Positions 18,420 through 29,431 of a stretch of 44,755 bases of DNA are shown piece after piece. Source of the DNA: Candidatus Thalassarchaeaceae archaeon (GTDB taxonomy: Archaea > Thermoplasmatota > Poseidoniia > Poseidoniales > Thalassarchaeaceae); assembly GCA_029250665.1 (NCBI GenBank), contig JAQXEV010000006.1, positions 1-44,755 of the forward strand, read 5' to 3'. The translations under genes were made by a program, and so were the position numbers. The notes below the pieces were generated by a model, which was not told the origin of the DNA, made no database searches, and saw only the letters and a list, made by a program, of their open reading frames with translations. The number at the start of each line of letters is the position of its first letter. Position 1 is the stretch's first letter.

Positions 18420-18551
18420 AAGCCCTTCATCGGAGGTGAACTACACAGTGTCAGTTCTCGGGCGGGTATTGTACCAGCCGGAGCCCTTCTTTGAGCCGCC
18501 CGTAGGGCGGCGCACGCATTGACCGAACCTTCATACCCGAATCGATATCGC

Positions 18552-21500
18552 ATGAACTCGTTGCCCATGCGTAGCCTGACACCTCTCACGTTATTCGCCA
18601 TTCTGATGGTGACGAGCCTCTCGCCCCTTGCGTTTGGCCCGGCACTGGACCACAACCCAGCGCGCGAGGTCTCACCTCGTGCCCTAATCGACTTCGAAGT
18701 GACAGCCATCGAGATTGGAAACGGTTCTCTCGACGCGAGGGAATGGACCAATCCAGATGACAGCATCGTTGAATATGTTCTCCGCGATGAATTGATTCAG
18801 ATCAATGTCACATTCACCCAAGCAGGAACCTCTGGCCAGCCGGCGAGTGCAAGTGGAATGTTGCAGATATGGCACCCTGTGGGATTCATGATTACACAGT
18901 GGGAAGTGAATATGACACTCTCCGGATTCCAATCCCACCGAGCAGAATTCTACTGGACTCCTAATTCTGCTCACAGCCAACTCGATGAGAATGGATATCT
19001 CGTTGGCGGTATAATCCTCCGCGGCATCATTGACGGCGGCCTCGCAGACGACAATGAAGAGAATAATCAGCTCGACCGCGAGATGCCAGTCGCTGTATGG
19101 GACGACCCGATGGAGAACGGCATTTGCGGAGATGTAGATCAAGACAATACTGCAGATTGCCCGAACCAACTAAGCTACGGCAACCCAACTTGGGTCGGAG
19201 CTGGCTACGATTCCGACGGTTCTCTCTCCGACAACCCTGATTACTACGGGCACTGGAGGATGGACAACACCTCGAGTGCCATTGGCGAGCGCCACTGGCG
19301 AATCTCCCGACAGGGCGCTGATTACGCAAGCAACCGAATTGATCGCATCTGGTGGGGTTGGTTGACACCTTTCGAATCCTGTGAGGATCCCGGACACGGT
19401 CTAGGTTACGGAACACTCGACCAGAGTGTGTCTGCTGTATACGCCAACAATTTCTGCCGCGCTCGTATCCGTGGGTTCGAATTCCTCTCTTTGCAGATGG
19501 TCTCACACGCCTGGGGTAGCATGGGCGCGGGCGATATGGTCCGAATGGAAGCGGATGCCGGTAACGAGGAATTCTACAATTACACTGCTCAAGAGTTATC
19601 CGAAACTTACGGAGATTGGACTCAACTGGTTTGGAATATGTCCGACGTCCACCCGACTGGTGACTATACACTGGCATTCAGATTCGATTCGGATTCTTCC
19701 CATGCGACGCAAGGAATTCACCTTGACGGATTCATCATGTTCGGTATAGAGCGTGTACCAGAATACACCCTTGGTCTCGAATGTGACGACCCTCTACCAA
19801 ATGCATACATCGTTGTTCCTGCCGATCCACGACCACCATCCCTCTGGTGCACAGTGAAAAATAATGGATACGTCGACATCACTCTCAGACTTTACACCGA
19901 GGTGTCGAACAAGTCATGGATGTGGGAGCACCCACTGCGAATCGATTCTAACCATCCTTCAGATCACGACAATAGCGTTGTAACCAAGACCATCAAAGCA
20001 CTGGAGACCATGGATCTCTGGATCAATCTGACTATTCCCGACGGTGTGACCGTTCAGGAAGTCAATTGGTATGTCCACATCGGCGATGGTTTGACAAATT
20101 TCTCAAAGTGGTCCGTCGACTTGCCCGTCGATGTCACAGCATCATATTCGTCCTATCTGACGCAGAAAACATTGCAGAATCCTGCTCTTACATTGTTACC
20201 TGGTGAAACGGGCGATGTTTTGATGTCTCTGAAGAATACTGGAAATCAGGTTGCTACATGGAACCTCGGTGGAACTTTCGCAGACAATCGTTGGAGCGCA
20301 ACGAACCTTGTTTGGGCAAATGAGACAGGAGTCGAAATGACGAGTGTCGAGATGCAGATAGGCGACGAATTCGAACTCAATGCTCGACTCACCGCCCCTG
20401 AGGAAATCACTCCTGGTTCTTACGCGATTACACTGCTGGCCAATGGGCGTGCTCCGGCTAATTTCCAGACCGAATGGACCGTTCAAGTCGAAGTGCCGAT
20501 TGATCACGATCTGAAGTTGGTACCTGAGGTTCGAGAGATGTTGGCACCAGCCGATGGTGCTCTGAGATGGATCGAAATTCAGATGGTCAACGATGGTAAC
20601 TCCGAGGAGGCCTTTGATCTGTCGATTTCTGCCGATTGGAGACTAGGTCTCGAATTGAACGCCGAACAGACTCTCGGTATCGATCCGTTCGGTGGAGATA
20701 CCAGTATTTTGCTGATGTTCCCGATGCCCTACGGAATAGAGAATGAGACCTACCAAATATGGGTCCGAGCGACCAGTCAAATCGATCCTCAATACCAGCG
20801 CAGTGTCCAATTGTTGCTAACGGTTCCCGAAACTTATCTCATCGAGGTTCCAAATATGGATCTCACCGAGGAGGTTTACCGCGCGGGTGATGATTCCCGG
20901 ACTTTGCGTTGGGAGATATGGAACCATGGGAATATGCCCGATCGGTTCCACATTTCCTTCGAGACTAGCCATTCTGACGTCTCGGTAAATGCGCAGGGAT
21001 TAACCAATGGTAAGACACCTTGGATTGGAGCTGGATCATCTCTCAATCTGACAGTTAGTTACGCCTTCGCACAGGGTGCGGATGGCGACCGCACAGTCAC
21101 CTTGATTGCTGCCAGTCAGGAGTCTGAGACAATCGGCCAGAGTGTATCTTCTCAAGGTGAGGCCGAATTCAAGGTTGGAAAGGTCGGATGGATGCTAGTT
21201 TTGCCTCCAGCCGGTGGACAAACCGTTGTTATTGATGAGAAGGGAGAATATATCCTCGAATTCACTGTTCAGAATTTGCATACTACATCTGAACAGTTGA
21301 TGAGAGCGGATATTGATCGCACTACAGAGCCTGAACTCTTCTTCAACGTCTTCGATGTCCGTGTTGACAGCGAGGACCGAGATTTCGTTCTGCCCGCCGG
21401 TTCGACAAAGGTCGTGACAGTTCGTGTTGATGTCAAGCAGGAGCATCTGGACAATCTTGGCGAGAATACGCTCGTGTTCAACGTGATTCTTGCGGTCGAT

Positions 21501-22115
21501 TCCGACATAGACAAGGTATCTGTCGGAACTCCAATTGAAATGGTGAAGACTGTTCAGGTCACCGAGGGACCCGATGTCGGATTTATCGCCAAGTTGGCAG
21601 CGAACATCGTCTTCGTCATCGCCGGATTGGTTGCGATGGCTGTCGTTGGCATAATCACATTCCGAATTTTCAAGGAAGCGCAAGCGCCACTTGAGGAATA
21701 CTCGAGCATCGAGGATTACTCGCCAAGTTTTGCCAATCTAGGGGGGGACGGAGAAGTCCCAGCCGCACCTGAGTTGCCAGCAGCCGACGAGGTTGCGAAT
21801 TCGATGTATGGTGGCTCAGCTGATATCTTTGAGAATCCTGCGGCTGAAATGCCACCGCCACCTCTACCAGAGGATGAGCAAGCAGCACCACCAGCACCAG
21901 AGATGCCTCCTCCACCAATGCCTGAACCTGAGCCTATGCCAGAGCCAGAGCCTGTTGAGGAGGAGATTCCTGAACCTGAGCCGGCTGTTGAGCCTGAGCC
22001 TGCTCTCCCACCTGGTGTCCCTCCGATTCCAGAAGATGGCCTCCCCGATGGTTGGACCATGGAGCAGTGGGCCTTTTACGGCCAGAAATGGATTGATCAA
22101 CAGAAGGGTGATTGA
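18552..22115 (+). CDS. Large surface-anchored protein with signal peptide, extracellular repeat-like domains, C-terminal TM and Pro/Glu-rich cytoplasmic tail
   Basis: About 1190 aa; signal 'LTPLTLFAILMVTSLSPLAFG'; TM 'IVFVIAGLVAMAVVGIITF'; ORF open from 18519 (TTG). Confidence 0.8.
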   Translation: MNSLPMRSLTPLTLFAILMVTSLSPLAFGPALDHNPAREVSPRALIDFEVTAIEIGNGSLDAREWTNPDDSIVEYVLRDELIQINVTFTQAGTSGQPASASGMLQIWHPVGFMITQWEVNMTLSGFQSHRAEFYWTPNSAHSQLDENGYLVGGIILRGIIDGGLADDNEENNQLDREMPVAVWDDPMENGICGDVDQDNTADCPNQLSYGNPTWVGAGYDSDGSLSDNPDYYGHWRMDNTSSAIGERHWRISRQGADYASNRIDRIWWGWLTPFESCEDPGHGLGYGTLDQSVSAVYANNFCRARIRGFEFLSLQMVSHAWGSMGAGDMVRMEADAGNEEFYNYTAQELSETYGDWTQLVWNMSDVHPTGDYTLAFRFDSDSSHATQGIHLDGFIMFGIERVPEYTLGLECDDPLPNAYIVVPADPRPPSLWCTVKNNGYVDITLRLYTEVSNKSWMWEHPLRIDSNHPSDHDNSVVTKTIKALETMDLWINLTIPDGVTVQEVNWYVHIGDGLTNFSKWSVDLPVDVTASYSSYLTQKTLQNPALTLLPGETGDVLMSLKNTGNQVATWNLGGTFADNRWSATNLVWANETGVEMTSVEMQIGDEFELNARLTAPEEITPGSYAITLLANGRAPANFQTEWTVQVEVPIDHDLKLVPEVREMLAPADGALRWIEIQMVNDGNSEEAFDLSISADWRLGLELNAEQTLGIDPFGGDTSILLMFPMPYGIENETYQIWVRATSQIDPQYQRSVQLLLTVPETYLIEVPNMDLTEEVYRAGDDSRTLRWEIWNHGNMPDRFHISFETSHSDVSVNAQGLTNGKTPWIGAGSSLNLTVSYAFAQGADGDRTVTLIAASQESETIGQSVSSQGEAEFKVGKVGWMLVLPPAGGQTVVIDEKGEYILEFTVQNLHTTSEQLMRADIDRTTEPELFFNVFDVRVDSEDRDFVLPAGSTKVVTVRVDVKQEHLDNLGENTLVFNVILAVDSDIDKVSVGTPIEMVKTVQVTEGPDVGFIAKLAANIVFVIAGLVAMAVVGIITFRIFKEAQAPLEEYSSIEDYSPSFANLGGDGEVPAAPELPAADEVANSMYGGSADIFENPAAEMPPPPLPEDEQAAPPAPEMPPPPMPEPEPMPEPEPVEEEIPEPEPAVEPEPALPPGVPPIPEDGLPDGWTMEQWAFYGQKWIDQQKGD

Positions 22116-22215: not shown

Positions 22216-23826
22216 ATGTACAACGGTCAACAACCAATATTTATCCTCAAGGAAGGGACTACTCGAACCAGCGGTAAGACCGCTCAGAGCAATAATATCG
22301 CGGCAGCTAAGGCCGTTTCTGACGCGGTTCGTAGCACCCTCGGGCCAAAGGGAATGGACAAGATGCTTGTCGATGCAATGGGCGATGTAGTCATCACTAA
22401 CGATGGTGCTACAATACTCAAGGAAATGGACATCGAACACCCTGCTGCCAAGATGATTATCGAGATCGCTAAGACTCAGGAGCAGCATTGCTTCGACGGT
22501 ACCACAAGTGCCGTTGTCATTGCAGGAGAGTTGCTCAAGCGTAGCGAGGACCTCGTCGACCAGAACGTCCACCCAACTGTAATCTGCGAGGGCTTCAGGC
22601 TCGCCTCAGATAAGGCCGCAGAACTCATCGATTCTCATTCTCTCGAGGTCAATGAGGAGCGACTTCACGAGGTCGCTATGACCGCCCTTACTGGCAAGAG
22701 TGCCGGGGCTGTCAAGGAATTCCTCGCAGACATATCAGTCCGTGCTGTCCTTGCAGTTAGCCAAGAAACCGATGACGGCGTCGTCGTCGACCTCGACGAC
22801 ATCAAGATTGAGAAGAAGCAGGGTGGGTCAATCAAGGACAGTTCCCTCGTCGACGGAATTATCCTCGACAAGGAGCGAGTCCACTCAGGAATGCCTCGCT
22901 CGGTCGCTGGCGCAAAGATTGCACTCATCAACTCGGCAATCGAGGTCAAGAAGACAGAAGTCGACGCTAAGATTCAGATCACAGATCCAAATATGCTGGC
23001 GCAATTCCTCGACGAGGAGGAATCATTCCTCAAGGGCCTCGTCGACAGCATCATCGCCAGCGGAGCCAATGTCGTCATCTGCCAGAAGGGCATAGACGAT
23101 TTGGCTCAGCACTACATGGCCAAGGCCGGTATATTCGCTATTCGCCGCGCTAAGAAGAGCGACATGGAAGCGCTCTCAAAGGCGACCGGCGGCAGTATCG
23201 TCACCAATGTCGATGACCTTAGCGGAGACGACCTCGGTCAAGCCGCAAAGGTTGACGAGCGAAAGATCGGCGATGCAGACATGGTCTTCATCACCGGCTG
23301 CCCGGAAGCCAAGAGCGTCAGCGTATTGCTGCGCGGCGGAACCGAGCATGTGGTCGATGAGATTCGCCGCGCATTCGATGACGCCGTTGGCGTCGTTGCA
23401 GTTGCTCACGAAGATGGAGCAGTTCTCACCGGCGGCGGTTCAGTTCTAGCAGCCATCAGCCGCGACTTGCGATCATACGCCGAAGGAATCGGTGGAAGGG
23501 AACAGATGGCAATCGAGGCCTTCGCCGGAGCTCTCGAGGTCATTCCTCGAACCCTCGCCGAAAACGCTGGCCTCGACCCGGTGAACACGATTATCGATCT
23601 CAGAAAGGCACATTCCGAAGGTCTCTCGACCTACGGAGTGAACGTCTACGACGGCGGAGTCGTAGACATGGCAGAGAGCAGAGTGTACGAGCCCAGCCGT
23701 GTTGTGGAACAGGCCGTGCAGAGCGCTTCGGAGACCGCAGTGATGATCCTCAGGATTGACGATGTCATCTCTAGCAAGGGCGGCGGCGGCATGGATGGCG
23801 CCGACTTCGATGGCTTCGATATGTGA
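22216..23826 (+). CDS. thsA: Thermosome subunit (group II chaperonin)
   Basis: '[44 protein letters not shown]', '[14 protein letters not shown]'. Confidence 0.97.
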
Positions 23827-23921: not shown

Positions 23922-25895
23922 ATGGCCATCGTCAGTGTCTATATTGAGGAGGGTTGCATCACCTGTGATGCCTGTGAAGAGATACTTCCAGAAGTCTTCC
24001 ACGTGACCGATGATACTTGCTTCATCAATGCCGAAGTGAGGCTTGATGGTGGATACGATAGGAACGAAGGGAAGGCGGGATTGAAGCCTGAAACTCTAGC
24101 TTCATTCGAAGATGACCTTCTCGACGCTGCTGATGGTTGTCCAGTCGATGTGATCATCATCGTCGAAGGTGGAGTGGCGGCCGCTGCTGAGCCCGAGGAG
24201 GCTGCTGCACCAGCCGCTGAAGCTACTGTAGAACCTGTGGCGTCCGAGCCCATCGAAGTGTCTGGTGATGATATCGGTGAGTTGCTAAGTGTTGGTGACC
24301 GCAGCCTCGCGATTCTCTTTGGCTCACAATCTGGAAACTCTGAGGACCTCGCTGCGAAGTTTGCAAAGCAGGCTGCGGATTATGGCCTCGAAGGAACCGT
24401 CCATGATATGGATGGCTTCGATTTTGGTTCGCTGTCGGGTATGAAGAGAGTCCTCATCGTCTGTTCTACTTGGGGAGAGGGCGAAATGCCCGACAATGCT
24501 GAGGAGCTTTGGCAGACCTCAACGAAGGCTCCAGCCGGCACTCTGTCCGGAGTCCACTTCTCGGTCTGTGCTCTCGGTGATACGAGTTACGAATTCTTCT
24601 GTGAGTCTGGAAAGGAATGGGATGAGCAATTCGAGAAACTCGGTGCTACACGACTCGTGGAGCGCGTCGATTGTGATGTCGATTACGATGCACCAGCAGC
24701 CGCATGGGCTATCGATGCACTGGCTGCTCTAGCCGCCGTCGATGGCTCCGGCGTCTATCATGAAGATATGATTGAGGCGATCAAGGCTAACGCCGCTGGC
24801 GATGTTGGCGGCGCCGACGGTGAAGACGGATTCTCAGTACCTGATCTAACGGCCGCCACTGTACAGGCCGAAATCAGCATCTTCCGCTATGATCCAGAGC
24901 AGGCATCGACCGGTTCCGACACTTGGGTCTGTGCGATGCCGGGTCACCTGAGTCTGCTGGAAACTCTTCGAACCATCAAGAGCACACACGATGGTAGCCT
25001 GTCCTTCCGTGACGGGGCTGCCGACGACCCATCGACTGCAATCTGCGTCAATGGGAGATTGGTTCTCCCAGGCATGATTCGCCTCGACGCTGTCGCCCCG
25101 ACTCGCGATGGAGTTCTCAGTCTGCGAGTCGACCCACTACCTGGCTTCGAAGTCATTCGTGACCTCGTCGTCGATCATTGGCCGATGGAGCGCAGGCGCG
25201 AATCAACCGAACCATGGATGGTCGCCGCAACTCGAGAAGGGGCCGCTACCATGCAAGGCGCCATCGGAGTAATGGATCCGAATGTCGCTACAGCGTTACA
25301 CTCGATTACTGATTTCAGCAGTGCCGCCCTCCTTCAAGCATCATCCGACGCTGTTCCACATGCGAATGGCTACCTCGGCCCCTCTGTCCTCGCTTCTGCT
25401 TGGGCTCGCCGTAACGATCCACGTTCATCGCATTCATCGGTTGCCAGCCTTGATTCGATCCTTGGAAGTAAGAACGGAATCAAGGCTGAGACAGATTTAG
25501 CCAGTATTCGTCGGCAGAATGGATCCGGTGTAGTCATCTCAGAGGCTTTGCTTGACGCAAGGACGCACGTTCTCGAGCAGGACGCATTCACAGGGCGTCA
25601 CGGCAAGCATGTTTGGTGGTACGCTTGGACGCTGAAATCGAGTGGAAAGGTCAACGATACTGTCCTCTATCGACAAGTTCTCGGCCCGATTGGACTTATT
25701 GGAAATCTGACTTCAGGAGTCACTGCGCGAATGGTGACCGGATTCACGCGCACAGGTGGAGACATGTTCTACGATATGTTGGCGATGGTCGCTCCGCCCG
25801 CAGGATTAGGAAAGATGCCGCGGCAATTCAATTCATCAGTCGAGAACCATCATGAGGTCGTAGCAATTTTCAATGAGCTCGACGGGAGATTCTGA
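23922..25895 (+). CDS. Ferredoxin - flavodoxin - degenerate SdhB/FrdB-like fusion protein
   Basis: 657 aa; N-term 'GCITCDACEEILPEVF...DGCPVD' 4Fe-4S ferredoxin; 'LAILFGSQSGNSEDLAAKFAKQA...CSTWGEGEMPDN' flavodoxin; 'LSLLETLRTIKSTHDGSLSFRDGAADDPSTAICVNGRLVLPG...EVIRDLVVDHWPM...YLGPSVLASAWARRNDPRSS' SdhB-like without cluster cysteines. Confidence 0.75.
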   Translation: MAIVSVYIEEGCITCDACEEILPEVFHVTDDTCFINAEVRLDGGYDRNEGKAGLKPETLASFEDDLLDAADGCPVDVIIIVEGGVAAAAEPEEAAAPAAEATVEPVASEPIEVSGDDIGELLSVGDRSLAILFGSQSGNSEDLAAKFAKQAADYGLEGTVHDMDGFDFGSLSGMKRVLIVCSTWGEGEMPDNAEELWQTSTKAPAGTLSGVHFSVCALGDTSYEFFCESGKEWDEQFEKLGATRLVERVDCDVDYDAPAAAWAIDALAALAAVDGSGVYHEDMIEAIKANAAGDVGGADGEDGFSVPDLTAATVQAEISIFRYDPEQASTGSDTWVCAMPGHLSLLETLRTIKSTHDGSLSFRDGAADDPSTAICVNGRLVLPGMIRLDAVAPTRDGVLSLRVDPLPGFEVIRDLVVDHWPMERRRESTEPWMVAATREGAATMQGAIGVMDPNVATALHSITDFSSAALLQASSDAVPHANGYLGPSVLASAWARRNDPRSSHSSVASLDSILGSKNGIKAETDLASIRRQNGSGVVISEALLDARTHVLEQDAFTGRHGKHVWWYAWTLKSSGKVNDTVLYRQVLGPIGLIGNLTSGVTARMVTGFTRTGGDMFYDMLAMVAPPAGLGKMPRQFNSSVENHHEVVAIFNELDGRF

Positions 25896-25904
25896 GGTGA
25901 GAAA

Positions 25905-26765
25905 ATGGCTGTCAAATACGCTTACCACCCTGGAAATGTCGCCCACAGCAGCGCTCCCGAGGTTGCTGATACGATGGGCCCCTTGGCTCGCGCCTTGGAT
26001 ATCACTCTGGTTCCTTTACCGGGAGCTACCAGTTGCGGCGCCGGAATTGTAAGACAGGCTAACCGTCGCCTGCAGTTGACTCTCAATGCACGTACCTTTG
26101 CTATGGCAGAGGCACAGGGTCTGGATATCATGACTCCGTGTGCTGCGACGGCGGGTAATTTACACGAGGACCTGATGACTTTGAGGTCAGACCAAATTTT
26201 GCTGCAAGAAGTCAATGAGACTCTGCAGCGCACTTGTGGTTTGACGATGACAGGGGATGTTGCAGTTCACCACTTACTACACGCGGTTGTCGATGAGATT
26301 GGACTAGACAAGTTAGCGGATAAGGTCCGCAACCCGATTGATTTCGCGGTTGCTGGATATTACGGACCAAACATGCAGCAAGAAGGCGCTTGTGGCGGAG
26401 ATGATGTGTATGATCCAGATTATCTTGAGCAGTTAATTTCAGCTCTTGGTGGAACTCCAGTTAGCTGGGAGGCTCGGACTCAGAGTGTCGGCGTCCCTGG
26501 GATATTCAGTGAGGAGCCGACTGTGATGAAGCAAGCTGCTGAGGCTCTGTCCGAGGCTAAGGCTGAAGGTGCTGAGTTGATTGTCAGCGCTTGCAATCTT
26601 TCTCATACCGTTCTTGATGTATATCAGGGCAAGGCCGGTCGTGATACCGGACTTGCGACTAACATCCCAGTGATTCATCTGTGCGAGATGCTTGCTTTCG
26701 CTCTTGGTACACACAATAGCCGATTGGCTCTACTCAGGACTCGTATCGCTGTTATCGGTGACTGA
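25905..26765 (+). CDS. HdrB/SdhE-like CCG-domain protein with degenerate cysteine motifs
   Basis: 286 aa; 'KYAYHPGN', 'ATSCGAG', 'MTPCAATAGNL', 'AGYYGP', 'YLEQLISALGGTPVSWEARTQSVG', 'SACNLSHTVLD' align by eye with the HdrB fold but most Cys are replaced. Confidence 0.7.
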   Translation: MAVKYAYHPGNVAHSSAPEVADTMGPLARALDITLVPLPGATSCGAGIVRQANRRLQLTLNARTFAMAEAQGLDIMTPCAATAGNLHEDLMTLRSDQILLQEVNETLQRTCGLTMTGDVAVHHLLHAVVDEIGLDKLADKVRNPIDFAVAGYYGPNMQQEGACGGDDVYDPDYLEQLISALGGTPVSWEARTQSVGVPGIFSEEPTVMKQAAEALSEAKAEGAELIVSACNLSHTVLDVYQGKAGRDTGLATNIPVIHLCEMLAFALGTHNSRLALLRTRIAVIGD

Positions 26766-26770
26766 TTCTC

Positions 26771-29431
26771 TCAGCGATTACGAAGACGCTCACCGGAGCG
26801 AAATGTCCGCCAGATTTCGCGGACTTGGGTTTCTGTAATTCCTTCGACTTGACGTAGTTCATCTTCGTCTGCCCAGACTAGACCTGCGATGGTTCCGAAT
26901 CGGTTGAGTAGACGGGTTGCGAGGTCTTCGTCGACGCTGGGAATAGCGACGAGCAGGGTGATTGCGCCTGTGCGCTCGTCGTCTTCACTGCCGCGGAGTT
27001 GGCGGGCAGCGGCAGCGGCTTGGGTTACGGGATCAGTCCAGAATTCTGGTTTGACCGCCTCTAACCTATCTCGCGCGTGAGGAGTAAGTCCGTCAAGCAT
27101 CGATTCTTCGCGGCGCGATGCGACCGTGAGGAATCTGGCTGTTTCTGCCCCATCTTTCGTAGTGACCACAGGGATTCCGAAGTCGAGTGCGAGAGTAGTG
27201 AGTGCTCCCATCAGTGCGTGGGGGTGGACTCTGGGGGAGCGGAACAGTCCTTCTCCCTCGATTAGTAGCAGACTTCTGGGGGCTGCTCCGACTAGTCTGC
27301 TCGCTTGTTCGAGGAGCCTGCCGTCGACGAGTGAGTCGACGAAGTCTCTGACAGTTTTCCGCTCAACTAGGATTCGCTCGCCGATACGAAAGTCACCCGT
27401 CTCGAGACGGTCGATTCGGACCTCAGTCCCTAATGCCTTCAATCGTGCCACTACGGCGCTGTTGAGTTCTCTATCATCGGCTGTAACCGTTGCTCCGGGG
27501 ACATCGGGTAGGCTATCTTCAAGGTCGATTAAATCTTGTGCGGCTGAGACTGGGTGTTTTGTCTCTTCAGGAGGCTTTGGATAGCTCTTACTTGGTGGGT
27601 TGGAAGGGCTTGATTCTTTTTCGCGTATGTGGGGTGTTTGTCCTCCCGCTGTTTTCTGCTTCTTTAGGACAACATCCTCACGCTGTGCTGGGAAATTTTC
27701 GAGACCGGTTTGCCCCCTCGGTCTGAATGTGGATGGGGGGATTATTCGAGGCTCTGCTGCAGTCTCTGTGGTCTCAGGCTGCTGCTGCTCACTGAGTTCC
27801 GGGCGATGTGCCTCTCGTATGCTTCGGACAAACTCAGCAGCAGGAGTTATTTCGTCTTCGATTATTACTCGGAACTGAGCCAAATTTGAGAGATCAAGAT
27901 GGCCACTACGAGCCAATTTTCTTCGAACTCTGCCGACTGCTCGGTACATGTTTTCTTCACGTCGAAGGGCGGCTGCACGCGCTCCTTCATCACGAGTATC
28001 TTCGGCTATCAAGACGACAACATCTCCATCGCGATGACGGCCGGTTCGACCCCGGCGCTGGATATTACGAATTTCGCTAGGTACCGGCTCGTAGAATATC
28101 ACGAGATCGGCACTAGGAATGTCAAGTCCTTCCTCGCCGACGCTCGTAGCAATCAGTATGTTTCCTTCGCCCGAGCGGAACGATTCGATGCGACTGACCT
28201 GCTGCTTTGGTGTCAGGCCTTTCCCACTTCCTCGCTTGCTTTGGCCGATGAATTGGATTGGCTTGGCACCTTCGAGGTTCTCCAATGCTGTATCTAGGGC
28301 TGTCACTGAATCTCTGAAGGTCGCGAAGACGATGATTCGGGATTCGGGGTCGCGGCGCAGCCTTTCTCTTACTAGTCGCCGGACTGCGCCGACCTTACTG
28401 TGAATCTCGCCGATTTCAGCGAGGCTCGCTCGTAGGTCTCTGACTCGCGGGTCACGGAGAAGATTGCGCGTGTTCTTCTTCTCTGAGTCCGCACCGCTCT
28501 CCTTTCGGTCGAGGAATTCTCGAGCGGCAGCGGTACCTTGGCAGAGAAGGTGGTTGATCAAGTGGTGAAGGGACATCGCCAATCCGATTCTGCTCATCGA
28601 TCCGTAGGCGTCCGACTCCCCTCTGCGAATCGCGACATTCGCTCTCTCCATCGCATTGGCAAGTCCAGAATGAGAGGCAGGCCCTGGCAGGACATATCTG
28701 CCGAGCCGACGCTCTCGGTCGACGATACTCTCCTGCCAACGAACGAAAGGCTCCGCAAGTTCTCGAATTTCGTTCGGAACTTTGACTCGTAATTCCTCAA
28801 TATCGAGATTTGCGAGGTGTTCTGTGAGCATCTCATCGCTTGAACTACGCATGTGGATTCGCTCTACTGCAAGCCTCTGACAAATTTCTTCGACTTTCTC
28901 AGTCTTCGATCCCGGGCTCGCAGTCATCCCAAGAATCAGTGGATCAGCAGCGATCCCGAGATAGAGATCGGCAACTTGTGCTTCGCCACGTTGCCCTGTC
29001 GCGTGATGCGCCTCGTCAATTACCAATACACAACAGTCGTTCAGATCCAACACACCCCTAGTCACATCGTTACGAACCACTTGAGGTGTTGAGACGATGA
29101 GGCGACTCTTCTGCCACATTCCGTCTCGCTTCGATGCAGGTATCGCTCCGCTCATTGCGATAGGTTCGATTGTTTCGTCCTTGAACACAGCTTGCAAATC
29201 ATCGAGATGTTGCTTCACAAGAGCTACTGTCGGCGCGATCATCAGCGCCCAGCCATCAGAGCGCTGTAGCATTTCGGCCATAACCATCCAAGCAACGGCG
29301 GTCTTTCCTGCCGCTGTCGGGAGCACAAGAAGGGTCGAACCAGACAGCGCTACATCGACTGCCTCTAGTTGATACGCTCGGGCTTCAATGACCTCGTCAC
29401 GAAGCCCATCATGCTGTAGCCTCGCGCTCAT
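26771..29431 (-). CDS. hef: Hef-type SF2 helicase / XPF-ERCC4 nuclease
   Basis: 886 aa; Walker A 'LPTAAGKTAVAW', 'DEAHHATG', C-terminal nuclease 'GDFRIGERILVERKTVRDFVDSLVDGRLLEQ', HhH region. Confidence 0.93.
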   Translation of the reverse strand: MSARLQHDGLRDEVIEARAYQLEAVDVALSGSTLLVLPTAAGKTAVAWMVMAEMLQRSDGWALMIAPTVALVKQHLDDLQAVFKDETIEPIAMSGAIPASKRDGMWQKSRLIVSTPQVVRNDVTRGVLDLNDCCVLVIDEAHHATGQRGEAQVADLYLGIAADPLILGMTASPGSKTEKVEEICQRLAVERIHMRSSSDEMLTEHLANLDIEELRVKVPNEIRELAEPFVRWQESIVDRERRLGRYVLPGPASHSGLANAMERANVAIRRGESDAYGSMSRIGLAMSLHHLINHLLCQGTAAAREFLDRKESGADSEKKNTRNLLRDPRVRDLRASLAEIGEIHSKVGAVRRLVRERLRRDPESRIIVFATFRDSVTALDTALENLEGAKPIQFIGQSKRGSGKGLTPKQQVSRIESFRSGEGNILIATSVGEEGLDIPSADLVIFYEPVPSEIRNIQRRGRTGRHRDGDVVVLIAEDTRDEGARAAALRREENMYRAVGRVRRKLARSGHLDLSNLAQFRVIIEDEITPAAEFVRSIREAHRPELSEQQQPETTETAAEPRIIPPSTFRPRGQTGLENFPAQREDVVLKKQKTAGGQTPHIREKESSPSNPPSKSYPKPPEETKHPVSAAQDLIDLEDSLPDVPGATVTADDRELNSAVVARLKALGTEVRIDRLETGDFRIGERILVERKTVRDFVDSLVDGRLLEQASRLVGAAPRSLLLIEGEGLFRSPRVHPHALMGALTTLALDFGIPVVTTKDGAETARFLTVASRREESMLDGLTPHARDRLEAVKPEFWTDPVTQAAAAARQLRGSEDDERTGAITLLVAIPSVDEDLATRLLNRFGTIAGLVWADEDELRQVEGITETQVREIWRTFRSGERLRNR

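Follow-up and report, generated by a model that had tools for sequence, protein, structure and literature searches.

What do two adjacent genes encode, if their products resemble two partner subunits of an iron-sulfur respiratory enzyme and lack most of the cysteines that would hold the clusters? The question is raised by positions 23922-26765 of the window, that is, the whole stretch of 44,755 nucleotides that was analysed (JAQXEV010000006.1 of GCA_029250665.1, positions 1-44,755, forward strand). The sequence-only reading had described a cassette of two long, intact reading frames, and frames of 657 and 286 aa are indeed found. Subunit-like parts that have lost their cluster ligands are marked with an asterisk below (SdhB*, SdhE*); Fd and Fld stand for ferredoxin and flavodoxin. 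The locus and its surroundings are organised as follows.

22216..23826, + strand: thermosome gene, constant upstream neighbour by synteny, context only
23922..25895, + strand: gene 1, Fd-Fld-SdhB*, 657 aa (open reading frame; Pfam/NCBIfam domains)
23922..24173, + strand: single [4Fe-4S] ferredoxin domain with its four cysteines C12, C15, C18 and C73 (Fer4_13)
24297..24791, + strand: flavodoxin (FMN) domain, CysJ-like (profile matches; FMN-loop residues invariant)
24849..25892, + strand: SdhB* region, SdhB fold with E-type C-terminal extension, without cluster ligands (profiles, fold)
25893..25910, + strand: gene 1/gene 2 junction TGAGGTGAGAAAATG..., where the stop codon leads into the ribosome-binding-like AGGTGA
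25905..26765, + strand: gene 2, SdhE*/HdrB-like protein of 286 aa with two CCG lobes; type II, neither site intact
26034..26036, + strand: Cys44 codon, the second cysteine of the CCG motif; retained in family f1, replaced by Asp in several genera of f2
26139..26141, + strand: Cys79 codon, first Cys of the N-lobe CxxC, invariant (66/66 and 36/36)
26592..26594, + strand: Cys230 codon, first Cys of the C-lobe CxxC, invariant (66/66 and 36/36)
26771..29431, - strand: Hef-like helicase/nuclease, constant downstream neighbour by synteny, context only

Only 9 bases separate the stop of gene 1 from the start of gene 2, and in the relatives' loci that were read the two genes overlap or nearly touch. 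Such a short gap, together with a stop codon that meets AGGTGA, implies translational coupling of the two genes. Further upstream the window encodes, at 18519-22115 on the + strand, a secreted-looking protein of 1198 aa with a C-terminal membrane helix and a proline/glutamate-rich tail; the two families of the order both keep its gene ahead of that for the thermosome.

Profile searches place both proteins in the expected families. The SdhB-like region of gene 1 matches Fer2_3 at residues 318-421 (37.9 bits, cut-off 27), dhsB (5.8e-14) and PRK05950 (1.4e-14); with NCBIfam TIGR00384 it scores 52.1 bits, under the cut-off of 88. Gene 2 contains a CCG domain (35.8 bits, cut-off 20.6), and nearly its whole length is matched by TIGR03288 HdrB (1e-36) and by the SdhE model of MFR (1.7e-29). 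Its bit scores stay under the curated cut-offs of TIGR03288 (126.7 versus 345) and NF042965 (103.3 versus 500), the latter being a weak criterion, as the cluster-bearing SdhE of family f6 likewise falls below 500. Both profile matches are strong, so homology to SdhB and to HdrB/SdhE is far beyond chance. The predicted fold agrees. Solved HdrB can be aligned with gene 2 over its entire length, and in Foldseek comparisons gene 2 shows the two-lobe CCG fold (TMt 0.85-0.89) and the SdhB-like region matches SdhB/FrdB (TMt 0.82). The SdhB-like and HdrB/SdhE-like assignments of the sequence-only reading are thus upheld by profile, fold and tree. We also considered a racemase function, given a weak match to the Asp/Glu racemase family (PF01177) and the two symmetric cysteines, and rejected it: gene 2 scores 26.2 bits, below the cut-off of 31, and since a cluster-bearing SdhE (L129) also matches weakly, the match reflects the fold. 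PF22196, an 'HdrB-like C-terminal domain', weakly matches some gene 2 relatives.

The cluster ligands of the SdhB-like region, which in E-type enzymes serve a [2Fe-2S] and two [4Fe-4S] clusters, are missing altogether. It has 2 cysteines in 348 residues, neither of them in a ligand column, and none of the 12 columns that hold cysteine in the nearest cluster-bearing SdhB has kept it. In the lists of commonest residues for 33 Poseidoniales SdhB* sequences, Cys appears in one of the 12 columns only (2/33). The alignments indicate that the SdhB* cluster sites were gone before the order diversified.

Gene 2 has a more graded history. Its ten HdrB ligand positions read N11 S43 C44 C79 T82 in the N-lobe and P155 S194 V195 C230 S233 in the C-lobe, i.e. 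3/10 site cysteines are retained, in agreement with the motifs read earlier from the letters (PGN, SCG, SVG, YYGP and broken CxxC). Relatives fall into two types. In type I, found in 12/66 sampled loci (genus g6 of f1 and parts of f2), the N-lobe set is complete (C11, C43, C44, C79, C82) and the C-lobe set is lost except C230, so that at most 6/10 SdhE cysteines are held. In type II, to which the window belongs, the N-lobe set is broken too. The C-lobe noncubane site is lost in all order members sampled. Cys79 and Cys230 are invariant in both types, and the cleft motif H234/D238/Q241 is kept alongside them. In HdrB the catalytic irons are held by Cys81 and Cys234 (PMC13083937); these are taken to correspond to gene 2 positions 82 and 233, both lost in type II. 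Cluster loss, as judged from these alignments, appears to have been stepwise: all sites in SdhB*, the C-lobe site in every SdhE*, the N-lobe site in part of them. The claimed parallel loss therefore stands in so far as ligands are gone in both partners, and fails in so far as the two losses are not in step. Likewise, the expected absence of the cysteines across Poseidoniales holds for SdhB* and not for the SdhE* N-lobe site of the type I loci.

Poseidoniales (Marine Group II), marine archaea that abound worldwide, have no cultured isolates (PMC6336850), and the data come from metagenome-assembled genomes. A few loci have truncated or fused frames (L041, L055, L161), and one could suspect sequencing error, mis-assembly or pseudogenes. 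Such an explanation is hardly credible for the pair as a whole: identical losses occur in hundreds of genomes from many assemblies. Gene 2 is present in 255/293 genomes of the order and in all 35 that are at least 90% complete, and the SdhB-like region of gene 1 has a similar spread. In family f3 of the same class that region is missing; its two weak matches there (E about 1e-6) are within the range that canonical SdhB gives, so f3 is counted as lacking it. The order thermosome - gene 1 - gene 2 - Hef-like nuclease was found in 20/20 loci checked, and ribosomal L3/L4/L2 follow in nearly all of them, as far as the contigs reach. Among these 20 loci the pair has no conserved functional neighbour, thermosome and Hef being unrelated. 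In close pairs dN/dS (omega) is mostly 0.02-0.10 for both halves. The pair is kept under strong purifying selection; conservation and omega rule out pseudogenes and sequencing error, and order-wide presence, omega and fixed synteny speak for the earlier suggestion of a repurposed rather than a decayed complex. A canonical sdhCAB with its cysteines lies on a different contig of the same genome, and a third contig encodes an HdrD-like protein whose CCG motifs are normal, so the pair is a separate system; that canonical sdhAB should be found elsewhere in the genome had been anticipated. The HdrD-like gene (L106:8201-10258, - strand, at least 428 aa, CCG motifs intact) is the genome's canonical CCG protein and is located near a two-cluster ferredoxin gene, beside methylmalonyl-CoA-type genes.

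Where does the pair come from? The nearest relatives that gene 2 has outside the order belong to one family of the phylum, f6, in which the operon reads sdhA, then sdhB (about 325 aa), then sdhE, i.e. E-type SdhABE. The f6 proteins keep all ten SdhE cysteines, and the twelve SdhB cysteine columns are conserved in 15/15. In the trees f6 is the nearest outgroup, with support of 94/86 and 95/91 around it. As the nearest outgroup is an intact sdhA-sdhB-sdhE operon, descent of the pair from an E-type SdhB-SdhE pair, without SdhA, is well supported by the sequence comparisons. There is no SdhA at the pair's locus, and the genome's own SdhA is that of the canonical sdhCAB on the other contig. An orphan E-type SdhA was considered as a hidden partner. 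The full-length FAD_binding_2 matches of the genome are the canonical SdhA, a protein that reads as L-aspartate-oxidase-like and a 476-aa protein; none was established as a partner. The tethered carriers of gene 1 may have taken over the role of SdhA.

The trees of the two genes tell different stories about the loss of the last cluster. In the gene 1 SdhB* tree, family f1 groups together (100/99) and type II as one clade is rejected (AU p = 6e-6). In the gene 2 tree, calculated without ligand columns, type II forms one clade (99/99) and f1 as one clade is rejected (p = 0.014). A single origin of the cluster-less SdhE* is thus supported by gene 2 and rejected by gene 1. Two genomes of genus g16 (L167, L168) can explain this conflict, as they are recombinant. 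Their upstream region and most of gene 1 are like those of their own genus, the other sampled members of which belong to type I; from a few hundred bases before the end of gene 1 through the whole of gene 2, the sequence is like type II genes of genus g14. Their gene 2 protein is 88-90% identical to that of g14 versus 47-49% to that of their own genus. We favour spread of the cluster-less gene 2 by recombination, as these sequence patterns suggest; convergence is not favoured. The same two loci indicate that a cluster-less subunit can be substituted in situ for a cluster-bearing one, the end of gene 1 changing with it. Joint exchange of the gene 1 3' end and gene 2 suggests a co-adapted interface, in which the exchanged end probably contacts SdhE*.

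Structure prediction points in the same direction. A read-through chain of both whole genes gave pLDDT 77.8 and pTM 0.60; for the SdhB*-SdhE* part alone, also as a read-through chain, the values were 80.6 and 0.82, with one compact body in which residues about 296-353 are poorly modelled. The predicted contact is that of a single read-through chain, not of two separate chains, and suggests that the products of gene 1 and gene 2 pack together. In one genome (G005; L161:1870-4830, + strand) both genes form one reading frame of 987 aa. At the point of fusion the conserved C-terminal residues of gene 1 are absent, through deletion or assembly collapse. We set this fusion aside as proof of interaction, since the conserved end of gene 1 is removed and the deletion may stem from assembly.

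The front end of gene 1 consists of carrier domains. Fer4_13 (PF13370) matches residues 9-78 (32.2 bits, cut-off 24.5), and Flavodoxin_1 (PF00258) matches residues 131-255 (1.7e-31; 109.8 bits, cut-off 25). The FMN-loop residues G134 S135 Q136 G138 N139, W184-G187 and G219-D220 are invariant among relatives, and the flavodoxin domain proposed earlier is thereby confirmed. Its closest family is the FMN domain of CysJ / cytochrome P450 reductase, where an NADPH/FAD reductase domain is attached; gene 1 has none. It is the sole Flavodoxin_1 match in the genome of the window, and in 27/40 genomes of the order flavodoxin matches are confined to the pair's locus. The intact N-terminal ferredoxin, the other half of the earlier description, is found in this genome, and cysteines 12/15/18/73 are all retained wherever the domain is present; as a trait of the system it fails, as a second flavodoxin replaces it in many loci. 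The 83 sampled loci comprise 43 Fd-Fld, 32 Fld-Fld, 7 with a single flavodoxin and 1 with ferredoxin only, some of the single-domain architectures possibly reflecting frameshifts. On the SdhB*+SdhE* tree Fd-Fld and Fld-Fld alternate about 12 times, and the extra flavodoxins arose by duplication of the adjacent one, independently and on several occasions. The N-terminal ferredoxin can be exchanged and is not a conserved part of the system. Since ferredoxin and flavodoxin share only the role of one-electron low-potential carrier, the N-terminal slot of gene 1 is probably a slot for such a carrier. Each of the nine type I loci in the architecture table has Fd-Fld, and type II occurs with both Fd-Fld and Fld-Fld; the type I lineages are so few that this association is no more than suggestive. 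Counted over both genes, recognisable iron sites per system range from two to none. In Thalassarchaeum betae Cayman_51_deep (L048:4601-5998, + strand) the gene 1 ferredoxin runs straight into SdhB*, without flavodoxin, and its whole-genome counterpart (G017) has zero Flavodoxin_1 matches genome-wide. Free-standing flavodoxins of about 150-200 aa are encoded by a minority of Poseidoniales genomes, and in others the domain is part of frames of about 600-640 aa; the other matches listed are on G003 C38/C40, G005 C4, G012 C33, G022 C2, G026 C8 and G033 C39.

Compared with known systems, the pair shares with E-type SdhABE, or 8-methylmenaquinol:fumarate reductase (MFR; Acidianus, Wolinella), an SdhB with a C-terminal extension adjacent to SdhE. 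It differs in that the locus lacks SdhA, the SdhB cluster ligands are gone, the window has 3/10 SdhE cysteines and Fd-Fld is fused before SdhB*. The 10-cysteine motif defines E-type SdhE (PMC2680327). Because the defining clusters and SdhA are absent, we place the pair outside E-type complex II, as a variant derived from it. With HdrB (5odc, 8rwn) it shares the two-lobe CCG fold over the full length at 26-28% identity, the best TMt being 0.89, but one or both noncubane sites are lost and the partner is SdhB-like, not HdrC/HdrA. A Foldseek alignment with 3KWL, an H. pylori protein of 514 aa and unknown function, extends over the SdhB* body as well as the SdhE* body (TMt 0.70, 637 columns, 12% identity). 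A sequence match between 3KWL and the pair was not found, and we know of no ferredoxin or flavodoxin part in it. Altered or lost CCG-lobe sites have a precedent in EtfD / FadF / DgcB, with a weak whole-body fold match to 9ojn: D1 of EtfD is a linear [3Fe-4S] cluster, and FadF/DgcB come up in the discussion of the D1 ligands (PMC13083937). Unlike the pair, EtfD is a membrane protein that keeps the noncubane cluster of the second CCG domain and two cubane clusters.

How could such a pair work? Our preferred reading, held tentatively and with ample room for its rivals, is that of a remodelled E-type SdhB-SdhE, in which a carrier-fed scaffold presents an HdrB-like cleft. SdhB* would no longer be a wire; as a scaffold it would hold SdhE* along with the carrier domains, which would swing. 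Electrons of low potential, e.g. from 2-oxoacid:ferredoxin oxidoreductase, which is encoded in the genome of the window as a possible source, would load the Fd/Fld and FMN domains. As absence of the SdhB clusters leaves the carriers without a wired route to SdhE*, the proposal has to assume direct contact, and the carriers would pass electrons directly into the cleft between the two SdhE* lobes. In HdrB this cleft is the place of disulfide cleavage. In type I the single N-lobe noncubane cluster would receive the electrons. In type II, as in the window, an HdrB-style cluster could not form, and Cys79 and Cys230 may serve as a thiol/disulfide centre or as a docking site for the acceptor.

The main rivals are quinone reduction and a pure carrier depot. 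The pair could be a Fd/Fld:quinone oxidoreductase that sits at the membrane via SdhE* and feeds the quinone pool from reduced ferredoxin or flavodoxin. E-type SdhE lacks transmembrane helices and associates with the membrane, probably by means of amphipathic ones (PMC2680327); MGII genomes lack a full Rnf (PMC6336850), so that another outlet for reduced ferredoxin would be useful; and a 2-oxoacid:ferredoxin oxidoreductase is present. However, the E-type cluster chain to quinone is missing, and we regard this route as unlikely. We give about the same small weight to a depot, where the scaffold would lack a catalytic site and would only store tethered Fd/Fld or present it to other enzymes, acting as the cell's flavodoxin. 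Confinement of flavodoxin matches to the locus in most of the genomes surveyed and the free variation of domain content (Fd-Fld, Fld-Fld, Fld, Fd) are in its favour, but a pure scaffold would not need invariant Cys79 and Cys230 and the H234/D238/Q241 motif. That the SdhB*-SdhE* body is not redox active at all, being e.g. structural or regulatory with the carriers as passengers, would fit the complete, order-wide loss of SdhB clusters; it is still less probable, since FMN-loop residues are invariant, the N-lobe cluster site is intact in the type I loci and ferredoxin is replaced by another redox domain, not merely lost.

We know of no earlier case where all SdhB sites and one or both SdhE sites are lost together with fusion of interchangeable carriers. 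A description of the gene pair was not found in the papers searched, and the earlier statement that no system of this architecture had been described is consistent with this; the electron transport chain passage of an MGII metabolic overview deals with canonical complexes I and II and RnfB, not with the pair (PMC6336850).

Taken together, the comparisons indicate that the pair is the remnant of a respiratory enzyme that has lost its flavin subunit and almost all iron-sulfur sites and has gained ferredoxin and flavodoxin. The marine habitat is often iron-scarce. It is conceivable, if on balance doubtful, that a complex II-derived enzyme has been losing iron stepwise, with catalysis moved to flavins and two invariant cysteines and with a new activity common to Poseidoniales; the series would then run from Fd and one noncubane cluster (type I) to Fld-Fld-SdhB* with type II, which has no recognisable iron site. 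The pair, found in nearly all Poseidoniales, often carries the only flavodoxin domain of the cell. It provides a natural series of how a multi-cluster iron-sulfur enzyme may shed its metal centres and yet stay useful, and raises the question of which substrate an HdrB-like cleft fed by ferredoxin and flavodoxin would reduce.
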